Below, in pieces: positions 42,467 through 46,850 of a stretch of 64,000 nt of DNA; the stretch's first letter is position 1; the number at the start of each line of letters is the position of its first letter. The position numbers were made by a program, and so were the translations under genes. Source of the DNA: Alicyclobacillus acidocaldarius subsp. acidocaldarius Tc-4-1. Lineage in GTDB: Bacteria; Bacillota; Bacilli; Alicyclobacillales; Alicyclobacillaceae. The stretch is from positions 1,423,092 through 1,487,091 of the forward strand of contig NC_017167.1 of NCBI RefSeq assembly GCF_000219875.1, written 5' to 3'. The notes beneath the pieces are model-generated. The model saw only the letters and a list, made by a program, of their open reading frames with translations, did not search any database and had not been told where the DNA came from.

Positions 42467-42886
42467 GTGTCCATGTATCCAGGGGGAAATGCAGAAGCAG
42501 CGACGGACGCGAGCGTCCGCACGTTCGCCGATTTGATTGGGGCGAAACTGGTGAGCGCAGACGATGACGAAGTGGTGGCCGAGTTAGTCATCCAGCCGCA
42601 TCACTGGAATCTGGCGCGCATCGTGCACGGAGGCGTGTACATGTCGCTGCTCGATTCGGCCATGGGGCTCCTCGTCAGCCTCCACTATCCGAACCGGCCC
42701 GTGGTGACGACGAACCTCAACATTCACTTCACGGAGCCTGCGAGCGAAGGTACGCTCGTCTGTAGAGCGAAGTTCATCCATCGAGCGCGAAGCACCATGA
42801 CCGTGGAGGGGCGCGTGTACCTGGGAGAGGACAGGTTGTGCGCGCACGCCACGGGATCGTTTCGCGTCCTGAAGCTACCTTCTTGA
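42467..42886 (+). CDS. PaaI-type acyl-CoA thioesterase
   Basis: A 139-residue hotdog-fold thioesterase. The active-site helix is HGGVYMSLLDSAMG (about 50-63), followed by NLNIHFTEPASEG and the edge strands. It probably hydrolyses stalled acyl-CoA intermediates. The GTG at 42467 is 7 bases from AAGGAGGGT; an ATG two codons in is less well spaced. It ends the fad operon, just before a strong terminator. Confidence 0.88.
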   Translation: MSMYPGGNAEAATDASVRTFADLIGAKLVSADDDEVVAELVIQPHHWNLARIVHGGVYMSLLDSAMGLLVSLHYPNRPVVTTNLNIHFTEPASEGTLVCRAKFIHRARSTMTVEGRVYLGEDRLCAHATGSFRVLKLPS

Positions 42887-42906
42887 AAGGATTTCGGTAT
42901 CGAAAC

Positions 42907-42948
42907 AAGGCCGTCTGCGGGCACATGTTCGCTGCAGACGGCCTTTTC
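42907..42948 (+). terminator. terminator of the fad operon
   Basis: A perfect 12-bp stem AAGGCCGTCTGC / GCAGACGGCCTT is followed by a TTTT run. It lies 20 bases after the thioesterase stop. Confidence 0.92.
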
Positions 42949-42992
42949 ACAGGTTTTTCGCCCATATCTGATGTGTTTTTTGAGAGAAGGGC

Positions 42993-43021
42993 TTGTCAAA
43001 CACTATATCTAGTGTTACGCT
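42993..43021 (+). promoter_or_regulatory. nrdAB promoter with NrdR box in the spacer
   Basis: TTGTCA (42993-42998), a 17-base spacer and TACGCT (43016-43021). The spacer holds ACACTATATCTAGTGT (43000-43015), which matches the NrdR box ACACWATATATWGTGT almost fully, so NrdR bound there would cover both promoter elements. A degraded second copy (CGCCCATATCTGATGT, 42959-42974) lies 41 bases upstream, about four helical turns, consistent with paired NrdR boxes. Confidence 0.75.
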
Positions 43022-43051
43022 AATGCCTGTCCAAAGCATGTGATGTGTCAA

Positions 43052-43237
43052 GGGAATGGGTGCCCGCCACGGGGCGGGTGAAAAGGGAATCCAGCGGAAA
43101 TCTGGAGCGGTCCTCGCCACGGTGACGCGGATCGCGGCGGCATGGGAACTTTCCAGCCACTCGGATGTCGAAAGACGTCGACACCGGGGAAGGCGCCGTC
43201 CGCGGATGAAGCGAAGCCCGGAGACCTGCCCATTCTC
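43052..43237 (+). ncRNA. cobalamin (AdoCbl) riboswitch aptamer
   Basis: The conserved elements of the cobalamin riboswitch appear in order: GGTGCC near 43059, GGTGAAAAGGGAATCCAG (43077-43094), a hairpin CCAG-CGGAAAT-CTGG, GAGCGGTCCTCGCCAC, and a B12-box AAGCCCGGAGACCTGCC (43214-43230). The enclosing P1 stem is GAATGGG (43054-43060) with CCCATTC (43229-43235). It sits in the 5' leader of nrdAB and is followed by a terminator, so high cobalamin should switch nrdAB off. Confidence 0.9.
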
Positions 43238-43321
43238 GAAGGATCCGACGCTCACGAGGGATTGAGAAGTCGGCGGACCGAGGACAGTTGCGCACTTCGA
43301 CTGATCCGTCTTCCGCCGTCT

Positions 43322-43355
43322 GCTCATCCGGGTGAGCGCCCTGGATGAGCTTTTT
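43322..43355 (+). terminator. riboswitch-controlled terminator upstream of nrdA
   Basis: Stem GCTCATCC / GGATGAGC is followed by TTTTT, 47 bases before the nrdA start. Just upstream, GGCGGA (43275-43280) can pair with TCCGCC (43312-43317), a plausible alternative structure in the expression platform. Confidence 0.8.
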
Positions 43356-43402
43356 GTGGGCGAAACTCAAGGTTTCAGGACGAGGTGCGGGGAGTGAATG
43401 CG

Positions 43403-45754
43403 ATGGTACACCCAACTGACACGTCGACAGGACTGATGGAGCGGACGAGTGAGGATGAACGCCGTGTGGGGCGCGCGAGCCATGCGCTAGAGGAATGGCG
43501 CGATCGCGTCAAGACCTTCACAGTGGAAAAGCGAGATGGGCGGATCGAGCCGCTGTCTCTGGACAAAATCTTCGCATTTTTAAAGCGCGGCTGCGAAGCG
43601 GCCGAGGGATGCGATCCGGAACGCCTGGCGGCGGACGTGTGGCCTCAGCTCCGGGACGGCATGCGGACGTCGGAGATTGCGCGCGTCGCGATTCAAGCGG
43701 CGGTGGAAAAGACGAGCGTCGCCGAACCCGGGTGGCAGTTTGTCGCGGCTCGGTTGTTGCTCTTCGATGCGTACAAGCAAGCGTCGCGCAATCGGGGTTA
43801 TCGTCATTTGGGTTACGGGGACTTTTATCAGTTGATTGTCGAGCTGGAGCGAATCGGGCGGTACGGCACGTACATACGACAGCACTACAGCGAGGACGAG
43901 ATCGCCGAACTGGCCGCCTACATCAAGCCGGAGCGAGATTACCTGTTTAACTACGTGGGTCTGAAGCAACTGCTGGATCGGTACACCATTCGCAATCTGG
44001 ACAACGAGATCATGGAACTGCCGCAAGAGTTGTTCATGGGCGTGTCCATGCACCTCGCCATGAAGGAAAAGGAGAAGGTCGCCTGGGCGAAGCGATTCTA
44101 CGACATGCTGTCCACGCTGCAGGCCACGGTGGCCACGCCCACACTGAGCAACGCGCGCAAACCGTTCCACCAGCTGAGCTCTTGCTTCATCGACATGCCA
44201 GAGGACGATCTCGTCAGCATCTACGCCACAGACGAAGCCTTCGCGCGCGTCTCGAAGTTCGGCGGCGGGATGGGCATCTACGTGGGCAAGATCCGGGCTC
44301 GCGGATCGGCCATCCGCAATCATCCGGGGGCGTCGGGCGGCGTGGTGCCTTGGATCCGCAACTTCAACAACACGGCTGTAAGCTGCAACCAACTCGGTAT
44401 GCGAGCCGGCGCGGCGGCCGTCTACCTCGACGTGTGGCACAAGGACATTCTGGACTTCCTGCAGCTGCGCACGAACAACGGCGACGAGCGGATGAAGGCG
44501 CACGACATCTTCCCGGGCGTGTGCATTCCGGACCTCTTCATGCGGCGCGTAGAGGAGCGCGGCATGTGGTACCTGTTCTGCCCGTACGAGGTCCGCAAGG
44601 TCATGGGCTTCTCGCTGGAAGACAGCTGGGGCGAAGAGTTCGAGCGGCGGTATCAGGCGTGCGTGGAGAATCCAAAGCTGCCGCGCGTGGAGATCCCGGC
44701 CATCGAAATCATGAAGCGGATCATGCAGTCCGCGTTCGAGACGGGAACGCCGTTCATCTTCTTCCGCGACACGGCCAATCGCCTCAACCCGAACAAGCAC
44801 GCGGGCATGGTCTACTGCAGCAACTTGTGCACGGAGATCATTCAAAATATGAGCCCGTCGCGCAGAATCGAAGAGACGGAAGAGGGCGGGATCATCACCA
44901 CGAAGACGGAGGCCGGTGATTTCGTCGTCTGCAACCTGTCCTCGCTGAACCTGGGGCGGTGCCGCGATCTCGACAGCATTCGCGAGACCGTGCGCCGGCA
45001 GATTCGCGCGATGGACAACGTGATCGACCTAAACCATTATCCGGTGCCCCAGGCCGCCGTCACAAACCGCAAGTATCGGGCGGTGGGCCTCGGCGTGAGC
45101 GGTTATCACCAATATCTCGCGGAGAAGGGCATCGCGTGGGAGTCGGAGGCCCACGTGAAACACGCCGACGAGCTGTTTGAGTGGATCAACTTCTTTGCCA
45201 TCGAGGCGTCCATGGAGCTGGCGCGCGAAAAGGGGCCGTATCCGCTGTTCGAAGGCTCCGATTGGCAAACCGGGCGGTACTTCGATCTGCGCGGGTACCG
45301 GACGCGCCCAGGTGGTCCAGACTGGGACGGCCTGCGCCGCAAGGTGGCCGAGTACGGCGTGCGCAACGCGTATCTGGTGGCCATTGCGCCGACCAGCAGT
45401 ACGAGCCTGATTGCGGGCAGCACGGCAGGCATCGATCCCGTGTACGCGCGCTTTTTCCTCGAGGAGAAGAAAAACGGCGTCGTACCTCAGACCGCGCCCA
45501 ATCTGAACGACAAGACGTTCTGGTACTACAAGGAGGCGCACACCATCGATCAGCGCTGGAGCATCGAAGCGTGCGCGGCACGGCAGCGGCACGCGGATCA
45601 GAGCCAATCGTTCAATCTGTACATCACGCCAGGCATCAGCGCACGGCAGTTCCTGGATCTTTACCTGTTGGCGTGGAAGCGAGGCCTGAAGACCGTGTAT
45701 TACGTCCGCAGCAAATCGGTGGAAGTTGAGGATTGCGTCGCGTGTACGTCATGA
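43403..45754 (+). CDS. nrdA: class I ribonucleoside-diphosphate reductase, large subunit
   Basis: Reduces ribonucleotides to deoxyribonucleotides with the NrdB radical. The 783-residue protein has an N-terminal ATP-cone (about 38-128), substrate-reducing Cys261 (LSSCFID) and Cys510 (VVCNLSS), radical-site N474/C476/E478 (SNLCTEI), radical-transfer Tyr766-Tyr767 (TVYYVR) and a C-terminal Cys pair 778/781. The ATP-cone and length indicate a NrdA-like type rather than the short NrdE usual in Bacilli. The ATG at 43403 is 8 bases from GGGGAG. Expression is under NrdR and the cobalamin riboswitch. Confidence 0.96.
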   Translation: MVHPTDTSTGLMERTSEDERRVGRASHALEEWRDRVKTFTVEKRDGRIEPLSLDKIFAFLKRGCEAAEGCDPERLAADVWPQLRDGMRTSEIARVAIQAAVEKTSVAEPGWQFVAARLLLFDAYKQASRNRGYRHLGYGDFYQLIVELERIGRYGTYIRQHYSEDEIAELAAYIKPERDYLFNYVGLKQLLDRYTIRNLDNEIMELPQELFMGVSMHLAMKEKEKVAWAKRFYDMLSTLQATVATPTLSNARKPFHQLSSCFIDMPEDDLVSIYATDEAFARVSKFGGGMGIYVGKIRARGSAIRNHPGASGGVVPWIRNFNNTAVSCNQLGMRAGAAAVYLDVWHKDILDFLQLRTNNGDERMKAHDIFPGVCIPDLFMRRVEERGMWYLFCPYEVRKVMGFSLEDSWGEEFERRYQACVENPKLPRVEIPAIEIMKRIMQSAFETGTPFIFFRDTANRLNPNKHAGMVYCSNLCTEIIQNMSPSRRIEETEEGGIITTKTEAGDFVVCNLSSLNLGRCRDLDSIRETVRRQIRAMDNVIDLNHYPVPQAAVTNRKYRAVGLGVSGYHQYLAEKGIAWESEAHVKHADELFEWINFFAIEASMELAREKGPYPLFEGSDWQTGRYFDLRGYRTRPGGPDWDGLRRKVAEYGVRNAYLVAIAPTSSTSLIAGSTAGIDPVYARFFLEEKKNGVVPQTAPNLNDKTFWYYKEAHTIDQRWSIEACAARQRHADQSQSFNLYITPGISARQFLDLYLLAWKRGLKTVYYVRSKSVEVEDCVACTS

Positions 45755-45812: not shown

Positions 45813-46850
45813 ATGCAACTGAAACGGACGAGGCTATTCAACGCAGAGGGCGATCGCGACTGGGGTAAGCGTCGAATTATCGGTGGGAATACCACCAACA
45901 TGATTGAGCTCAACAACATCAAGTACGAGTGGGCCTACAAGCTTTATCGGGCCATGATGAACAACTTCTGGATTCCAGAAGAAATCCCCTTGGCCGACGA
46001 CGCTCGCCAATACGATTTGCTGAGCGAGGACGAACGCAGGAGCTATAACAAGGTCCTGTCCTTTCTGATCTTCATGGACAGCCTGTTGACGCACAATCTA
46101 CCGAATATCAACGAGTACATCACCGCGCCCGAGGTCAACCTGTGCCTCACCGTACATGCCTTCCAGGAGGCGGTGCATTCGCAGTCCTACGGCTACGTGC
46201 TGGATTCCGTCGTCAACCCGGCGACGCGAGACCAGATCTACAACGAATGGCGAAATGATGACCACCTGCTTCGGCGAAATCAGTTCATTACGGACCTGTT
46301 CGAGGAATTCATCGAGAACCCGACAGACCGGAATTTGATGAAGACCATCGTTGCCAACTACATCCTGGAGGGCGTGTACTTCTACGCGGGGTTCGGCTTT
46401 TTCTTCGTGCTGGGGCGCCAGGGCAAGATGCTCGGAACGGTTTCGGAGATCAAATTCATTCAACGAGACGAGCTGACGCATCTCGCGATTTTCCGCAACC
46501 TGTATCACGAGATCATCCGCGAAAACCCAGGCATCGTCACGCCCGACATGGAAGAAGAGTTCGTAGAGATGATGCGCACGGCCGTGCAGCACGAAATCGC
46601 GTGGGGACAGTACGTGACGCAAGGGAAGATCGTGGGACTGACCGACGCGCTCATCGACGCGTACATCAAATATCTCGCGAATCTGCGACTTCAGTCGCTG
46701 AACTTGCCCGTCCTTTACCCGGAAATCAAAGAGCATCCGATGCCGTGGATGGACAGCTTCGCTGCCATCAACTCGCACAAGACCGACTTCTTCGAACAGC
46801 GCGTGACCAACTACACGAAAGCTGGCAATCTCAACTGGGACGACCTATAA
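45813..46850 (+). CDS. nrdB: class I ribonucleoside-diphosphate reductase, small subunit
   Basis: The 345-residue ferritin-like radical-generating subunit. All metal ligands are present: D89, E119, H122, E186, E220 and H223. The radical tyrosine is at Y126 (EAVHSQSY). The C-terminal tail NLNWDDL would dock into NrdA. No nrdI is found nearby, so a class Ib manganese system is less likely. GGAGG precedes the ATG, and it is 58 bases after nrdA in the same operon. Confidence 0.96.
   Translation: MQLKRTRLFNAEGDRDWGKRRIIGGNTTNMIELNNIKYEWAYKLYRAMMNNFWIPEEIPLADDARQYDLLSEDERRSYNKVLSFLIFMDSLLTHNLPNINEYITAPEVNLCLTVHAFQEAVHSQSYGYVLDSVVNPATRDQIYNEWRNDDHLLRRNQFITDLFEEFIENPTDRNLMKTIVANYILEGVYFYAGFGFFFVLGRQGKMLGTVSEIKFIQRDELTHLAIFRNLYHEIIRENPGIVTPDMEEEFVEMMRTAVQHEIAWGQYVTQGKIVGLTDALIDAYIKYLANLRLQSLNLPVLYPEIKEHPMPWMDSFAAINSHKTDFFEQRVTNYTKAGNLNWDDL

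Follow-up and report, generated by a model that had tools for sequence, protein, structure and literature searches.

The class I ribonucleotide reductase operon nrdAB in the window (the whole 64,000-nt stretch of DNA that was analysed, with every feature described below on its + strand) appears to be governed by a two-input OFF switch on a B12-independent enzyme, a reading to which we assign a probability of about 0.86. Computation places an NrdR box at a conserved position in the promoter, with a cobalamin riboswitch and an intrinsic terminator following it ahead of nrdA, and it finds nrdR and nrdJ in the same genome. From these elements we infer how the switch would work. When dATP is plentiful, NrdR would take the box in the promoter spacer together with a weaker box that lies upstream by four helical turns; NrdR bound to these nrdAB promoter boxes would block RNA polymerase. 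With ample coenzyme B12, the leader would bind it while being transcribed, loop L5 would kiss loop L13 and P13 would be held shut, leaving the 3' strand of P13 unavailable for an antiterminator, so that the terminator would form and nrdAB would not be transcribed. The operon would thus be expressed when dNTPs and B12 are both short, while NrdJ would serve when B12 is present.

The identity of the operon is clear from its two adjacent genes, in which both class I subunit families are present. The large subunit gene nrdA (43403-45754) encodes a protein with an ATP-cone and matches TIGR02506 at 633 bits as well as PF02867, PF00317 and PF03477; its best start is the ATG at 43403, with the Shine-Dalgarno-like sequence GGGGAG read at 43389-43394. 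The small subunit gene nrdB (45813-46850) matches NF007184 at 492 bits, above the cutoff, and PF00268. On the upstream side, direct reading of the sequence identifies an inverted repeat, GGCCGTCTGC...GCAGACGGCC followed by TTTT (42909-42947), as a terminator-like end of the preceding unit. The terminator scan does not list this repeat, the loop being too long for that scan.

The initial annotation described a near-perfect NrdR box filling the 17-base spacer of the nrdAB promoter (42993-43021), and our analysis bears this out. The main box, ACACTATATCTAGTGT at 43000-43015, agrees at 16/16 positions with ACACWAKATVTWGTGT, taken as the consensus for scoring NrdR boxes. It fills the 17 bp between a -35 element TTGTCA (42993-42998) and a weak -10 element TACGCT (43016-43021), both assigned by sequence reading and family comparison. 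The -10 element matches at just 3/6 positions, though a TG precedes it, and because of this the promoter is absent from the promoter scan of the window. A search of the 64,000-nt window for the NrdR box pattern with up to three mismatches returned six matches (three sites, both strands) against 1.08 expected, and 43000-43015 is the sole site in the window with fewer than three mismatches. In the Alicyclobacillus family, class I nrdA is found in 27 copies in 26 of 41 genomes, and every copy has a spacer box, whereas a best box score of at least 13 was reached in 2.2% of resampled upstream regions, and the riboswitches that are not linked to nrdA have a best score of at most 12 in 40/41 cases. 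The mismatch scan of the window, the conservation in the family and the comparison with unlinked riboswitches together rule out a chance match for the main box.

The degenerate second copy proposed at 41 bases upstream is also present, as CGCCCATATCTGATGT at 42959-42974. Its position is backed across the family. A score of at least 10 at an offset of 41-43 bp occurs in 19 of the 26 nrdA copies compared, whereas control offsets yield 0.5 such copies on average and never more than 3. Chance therefore does not account for the position. That the upstream copy itself scores just 10/16 is what favours a different view, namely that the riboswitch is the sole real control and that NrdR does not use the palindromic promoter box since its partner is too degenerate. 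We regard this as quite unlikely. The spacer box is perfect here and scores 13-16/16 in 27/27 copies while the flanks diverge, a partner at 41-43 bp recurs in most of the copies compared, the layout is matched at the nrdRJ promoters, and nrdAB of P. acnes is likewise described with a single box (PMC3848588). The nrdRJ promoter of the same genome carries a box pair too, and in the family 36 of the 39 regions upstream of nrdR have their best pair spaced at 41-43 bp. Two points added by the present analysis, both drawn from sequence comparison, are that class I and class II promoters appear to share the box-in-spacer layout and that the family's box pairs lie at what would be a four-helical-turn spacing, elsewhere called atypical.

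The second input of the proposed switch begins with the aptamer. A covariance search confirms the cobalamin aptamer that had been claimed for the nrdA leader, with a match to RF00174 at 43041-43247 that is full length (model positions 1-189) and scores 103.1 bits (E 1.1e-24) against a cutoff of 31.5. The segment UCCUCG of L5 (43111-43116) is complementary over 6 bp to the loop L13, CGAGGG (43255-43260), of a P13 hairpin at 43245-43273, and the hairpin is supported by folding and by 54/54 paired cells in six sequences. This complementarity, observed at the level of sequence only, is intact and unchanged in 6/6 close sequences, and as these pairs are invariant no covariation can come from them. 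It could be argued that the leader holds a decayed or chance aptamer which has lost B12 sensing, as the RF00174 alignment flags some pairs as non-standard, those in P1 among them. Against this stand the full-length match, the intact kissing loop and P13, and the pattern in the family, where all 27 nrdA copies found for class I have a riboswitch lying 156-686 nt ahead of the matched start. We consider a chance or decayed aptamer extremely improbable, and the RF00174 match and the 27/27 conservation lead us to treat it as ruled out.

The terminator that had been noted ahead of nrdA is found by both the scan and folding at 43322-43355, as GCTCATCCGGG...CCTGGATGAGC with the hairpin at 43322-43350 followed by TTTTT. 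In six close sequences 72/72 of its cells are paired, with one double change, which was equalled in 75 of 500 shuffles. Covariation support within the expression platform is thin. The proposed antiterminator (43259-43329) would pair GGAUUGAG (43259-43266) with CUCAUCC (43323-43329), closed over a hairpin at 43271-43318; folding gives it -35.6 kcal/mol, and in the six close sequences 136/150 of its cells are paired and 14/150 are broken. Plain energy folding ranks the terminator above the antiterminator even when no ligand is bound, and the switch therefore has to be assumed to work co-transcriptionally (kinetically). The duplex between P13 and the terminator was considered as a general proof of the antiterminator and was dropped, since it is better than 95% of shuffles in just 7 of the 24 leaders tested (out of 27 in the family); the leader of the window genome is outside these seven, with 8.5% of shuffles as good.

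These folding results leave some room for the riboswitch to act mainly on translation or mRNA decay instead of transcription termination, which we judge unlikely, though less so than the alternatives above. The antiterminator is not favoured by plain folding, and one relative (G028) has no terminator in the scan of its leader, while another (G012) gives a weak fragment only. Against this view, a hairpin with a T-run is present in 25 of the 27 family leaders (in a scan run without a shuffled control), the ribosome site lies 33 nt past the T-run and is outside the proposed switch, and among 38 cobalamin riboswitches found functional when tested in B. subtilis, 37 had predicted terminators (PMC9600662).

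The regulatory logic also depends on the rest of the genome, where the initial annotation had suggested looking for nrdJ and nrdR. Both are there: nrdR (TIGR00244, 195 bits) is directly upstream of nrdJ, the B12-dependent class II enzyme gene, at G000:C1:1887669-1890866, and apart from nrdJ the only barrel-domain ribonucleotide reductase found in the genome is nrdA. Of the three findings that the initial annotation named as refuting it, two, the absence of a covariance-model match and of a class II gene, are contradicted by the strong match and by the nrdJ placed behind nrdR. The proposed regulatory logic therefore stands, and the idea that a backup enzyme would be turned off when B12 is present is well supported. 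Two cobalamin riboswitches were found in the genome; the second lies ahead of an ORF for a binding protein, and further transport-like and cobalamin-salvage-like ORFs were identified by eye in that region. A wider NrdR regulon was also considered and rejected. A scan of the genome with two mismatches gave 31 matches per strand against 44 in the reversed control, so we claim an NrdR regulon for nrdAB and nrdRJ only. A second site with zero mismatches to a looser NrdR pattern occurs at C1:2890060.

One claim of the initial annotation did not survive, which is that the combination of box and riboswitch is unusual in a Firmicute. It is contradicted within the family by all 27 nrdA copies and is weakened beyond it by some other Bacilli and by published cases. 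In a few other Bacilli the same module lies ahead of nrdA, nrdIE or nrdD. A search of 398 genomes for the box-in-spacer pattern gave 56 matches against 11 with a reversed control pattern, from which some of the single matches outside the family are due to chance. All six genomes outside the family set with a riboswitch before a B12-independent reductase have a class II enzyme, where the nrdJ match is interrupted in two (G158 and G050) and a TAG lies inside one of the G158 pieces. A strict coupling outside the family set is nevertheless broken by five nrdJ genomes (G155, G410, G412, G413 and G415) in which the scan of the nrdA locus found no RF00174 match upstream, so a genome with nrdJ need not have the riboswitch.

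In one family member that has a class II enzyme only (G038), the module precedes a NicO-family Ni/Co transporter, and its aptamer is closest to the nrdA-type aptamers. Tentatively, and at somewhat less than even odds, the spacer box and the riboswitch may form a portable Bacilli cassette that can be attached to any B12-independent reductase, whether class Ia, Ib or III, in genomes that have a class II enzyme, and that can outlive its operon as in G038. If this were true, dNTP status would gate cobalt uptake for B12 through NrdR in that genome, and the demand for DNA precursors would be tied directly to the B12 supply.

The arrangement of box and riboswitch before nrdAB is real, known in kind and well conserved. 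The scheme described in actinobacteria, in which NrdR and a B12 riboswitch control a backup reductase, is predicted for all class I copies found in this Firmicute family, and some other Bacilli share it. This offers non-pathogenic hosts for testing how a DNA repressor in the promoter spacer acts together with a leader riboswitch.

Among known systems, the nrdABS operon of Streptomyces coelicolor reportedly has a B12 riboswitch (Borovok 2006, as cited in PMC4342826). As in our case, a class I operon there is under NrdR and a B12 riboswitch, and the class II gene lies behind nrdR in one operon, nrdRJ, with NrdR binding both promoters (PMC9110341). S. coelicolor belongs to another phylum. In the Alicyclobacillus family the box fills the -35/-10 spacer and has its partner 41-43 bp away. 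Propionibacterium (Cutibacterium) acnes, with its nrdAB and nrdDG operons, is a second actinobacterial comparison. PMC3848588 describes one nrd-box at the promoter of nrdAB together with an nrdRJ operon, as here, and a leader cobalamin riboswitch with early transcript ends, the riboswitch being shared with Alicyclobacillus; its section 11 does not say where the box lies with respect to -35 and -10. Closer in phylogeny, Bacillus methanolicus MGA3 nrdAB is a Firmicute class I operon with a predicted AdoCbl riboswitch, in passages of PMC4342826 that do not discuss an NrdR box. The Streptococcus pneumoniae operons nrdHEF and nrdDG are class Ib and III, and PMC12051234, which describes them, makes no mention of a B12 riboswitch. 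Their NrdR boxes are 24-26 bp apart, about one helix turn above the usual, which that paper terms atypical. It also reports that S. coelicolor NrdR binds best with 15-17 bp between boxes, compared with 25-27 bp here, and that four tested NrdR proteins have a second optimum at 24-27 bp, within which the spacing here falls. The spacing called atypical in S. pneumoniae is common in the Alicyclobacillus family, which thus offers the four-turn arrangement as a common form.

The nrdAB leader, inspected over 42880-43420, combines an NrdR box inside the promoter with a cobalamin riboswitch behind it. The 17-base spacer between the -35 element TTGTCA (42993-42998) and the -10 element TACGCT (43016-43021) holds a single A plus the 16-bp palindrome ACACTATATCTAGTGT (43000-43015), which fits 16 of 16 positions of the NrdR consensus used for scoring. 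A weaker copy of the box starts at 42959, 41 bp upstream. RF00174 then matches 43041-43247 over its whole model length with 103.1 bits, L13 (43255-43260) is complementary to its kissing partner L5 (43111-43116), and an intrinsic terminator (43322-43350) is followed by five T. The nrdA ATG is at 43403 with GGGGAG eight bases 5' of it, and gene family matches downstream of the leader identify a class I nrdA, which carries an ATP-cone, and nrdB. The initial annotation had claimed the box in the spacer, the degenerate second copy, the aptamer and the terminator, and all four are found where it placed them, the aptamer now by covariance search.

The window's genome is a single contig of 3,124,048 bases, in which a search with the RNR barrel domain finds two genes, the nrdA of the window and a B12-dependent nrdJ at C1:1887669-1890866. 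The repressor gene nrdR (C1:1890975-1891412) immediately precedes nrdJ, in the same orientation, so that the nrdJ and nrdR suggested for look-up elsewhere in the genome are both present and adjoin each other. Two cobalamin riboswitches are found, the window copy included; the second precedes a binding-protein ORF in a region with permease-, ABC-, cobT- and adenosyltransferase-like ORFs, as judged by eye from the translations. The nearest named matches to nrdA are from Alicyclobacillus species, with A. sendaiensis at 95%, which suggests a relative of A. acidocaldarius. Two further weak small-subunit family matches, at C1:170206-170790 (90.7 bits) and 807735-808346 (61.9 bits), are R2lox-like and probably R2-like oxidases.

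Class I nrdA occurs as 27 copies in 26 of the 41 genomes of the family, 25 of them at 70-100% identity and two at 34%. Each of the 27 is preceded by a same-strand RF00174 match, at 156-686 nt from the matched nrdA start. Within 130 nt of the aptamer the top-scoring NrdR-like box reaches 13-16 of 16, and in every copy it has TTG seven bases ahead and TA immediately behind; the pattern TTGnnnn-box-TAnnnT fits exactly in 25, with TATAAC in the remaining two. A best score of at least 13 was reached in 2.2% of Markov resamplings (400 per upstream region). Among 41 control cobalamin riboswitches with no nrdA link, the best box scored at most 12 in 40 and 16 in one. This control consists of 40 of the 41 riboswitches listed for the 14 genomes with no class I nrdA match, one near a contig start being dropped, and, from nrdA-bearing genomes, only the second riboswitch of the window's genome. 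The gene nrdJ is found in 40 of the 41 genomes and nrdR in 39; completeness is 62% for the genome with neither and 82% for the one lacking nrdR alone. One family genome (G005) carries nrdA, box and riboswitch a second time, on contig C2 (L098, 148985 bases), where an Alicyclobacillus dauci plasmid record also matches; the match score of this second nrdA equals that of the chromosomal copy.

A second box scoring at least 10 lies 41-43 bp upstream in 19 of 26 nrdA copies (the second copy of one genome, with the same score, being left out), whereas control offsets average 0.5 such copies and reach 3 at most. Of the 39 upstream regions of nrdR (L111-L149), 36 have their best box pair at a distance of 41-43 bp, in a search open to offsets of 29-33 and 39-45. 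The pattern TTGnnn-16 bases-n-TATAAT is also found in 36, not exactly the same set, when its 16 bases need to score at least 9 of 16, a loose threshold. Because the nrdA and nrdR promoter counts both show the box in the spacer, this layout is mostly common to the class I and class II operons. The partner box is upstream of the spacer box in nrdAB and downstream in nrdRJ. The start-to-start distance of 41-43 bp corresponds to a 25-27 bp spacer between boxes. The 25-bp box spacer of S. pneumoniae is described as about one helix turn above the common length, and four NrdR proteins as having a second binding optimum at about 24-27 bp, weaker than the first in some (PMC12051234).

Outside the family set, 42 of 51 nrdA loci (16 + 18 + 8) were scanned with Rfam. 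The riboswitch is present in all five Alicyclobacillus loci, which belong to the last batch of eight, and upstream of nrdA in two of the 37 others, some of which have little upstream sequence; these two are from Paenibacillus alkalitolerans (L037) and a Bacilli MAG (L034) that is possibly close to the family. When 398 Bacilli genomes were searched for the box-in-spacer promoter pattern, 56 matches turned up in 50 genomes, of which 16 belong to the family; the reversed control pattern matched 11 times. RF00174 lies beside the box in five of 15 scanned loci, taken from 30 listed (one of the family, L164, and 14 outside). The gene behind box and riboswitch is nrdA in G158 and G050, nrdI-nrdE in G262, a NicO-family transporter gene in the family member G038, and in G194, of another Bacilli family (f5), class III nrdD (L222:993-3374, minus strand), a riboswitch resembling that of P. 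acnes nrdDG. Beyond the family set, six genomes have the riboswitch ahead of a B12-independent RNR, and each of them also has a class II enzyme: RTPR in G262 and nrdJ in the other five, with the nrdJ of G158 and G050 interrupted. Five genomes outside the set have nrdJ, yet no riboswitch upstream of the scanned nrdA locus.

Two side observations can be added. In the pattern search, 18 f5 genomes have in common a promoter of the TTTACA type whose spacer contains an NrdR-like box; of three f5 loci scanned, L178, before nrdD, has RF00174, and L179 and L184, before nrdA, have none even at E<=1. NrdJ matches fall into at least two pieces with large insertions at G030:C1:3187657-3192021, G025:C85:6125-10471, G158:C111:1550-6560 and G050:C10:136469-140156, the pieces sharing one open frame of 1479-1490 aa in two cases, and these insertions appear intein- or intron-like.

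The module may also outlive its gene. The family member G038 has nrdJ and nrdR, and a search of its genome gave no class I nrdA and no small-subunit match. It carries a 16/16 NrdR box in a promoter spacer and a riboswitch (L180:2840-4470, contig C66, minus strand), with a strong hairpin but a poor T-run after the aptamer, as seen by eye. The ORF starting 340 nt past the aptamer matches PF03824 NicO with 312 bits. The aptamer has a mean identity of 0.62 to the 27 nrdA-linked aptamers versus 0.51 to 38 others (the 40 others minus two left out), and the eight nearest to it are all nrdA-linked. We read this single case as a probable former nrdA leader that now stands ahead of a metal transporter.

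In the proposed expression platform the 3' strand of P13 would pair with the terminator arm to form the antiterminator. Plain folding gives -10.4 kcal/mol for P13, -35.6 for the antiterminator stretch and -20.4 for the terminator, and the terminator together with the intervening hairpin wins over the antiterminator; it must therefore be assumed that the switch would work co-transcriptionally. In six close sequences pairs are kept in 72/72 cells for the terminator, 54/54 for P13, 36/36 for the kissing loops and 136/150 for the antiterminator. The terminator shows one double change, which is equalled by 75 of 500 shuffles, and the duplex of terminator arm and P13 region beats 95% of shuffles in seven of the 24 family leaders compared. 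A scan run with no shuffled control detects a terminator in 25 of 27 family leaders; one is visible by eye in G012, and the scan shows none in G028. Given these folding, pair-conservation and shuffle results, control by transcription termination is likely, and the antiterminator detail is what we infer.

The observation of an NrdR box with a cobalamin riboswitch at nrdAB is right, and control by both is the best-supported reading of the mechanism. A literature search of titles and abstracts, mostly judged without full text, returned nothing on this combination in Alicyclobacillus. Such control is of a kind already known: P. acnes nrdAB is reported to have a single nrd-box on the promoter, a cobalamin riboswitch and early transcript ends, and nrdDG a riboswitch (PMC3848588). 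An AdoCbl riboswitch has been predicted for B. methanolicus nrdAB (PMC4342826), in a paper that refers to Borovok 2006 on nrdABS of S. coelicolor. In S. coelicolor, NrdR is described as bound to both the nrdAB and the nrdRJ promoter when dATP is combined with ATP (or ADP), and not with ATP alone or dATP alone (PMC9110341). To these systems we add the family-wide conservation, the common promoter geometry, the four-turn box spacing and the transporter case of G038.
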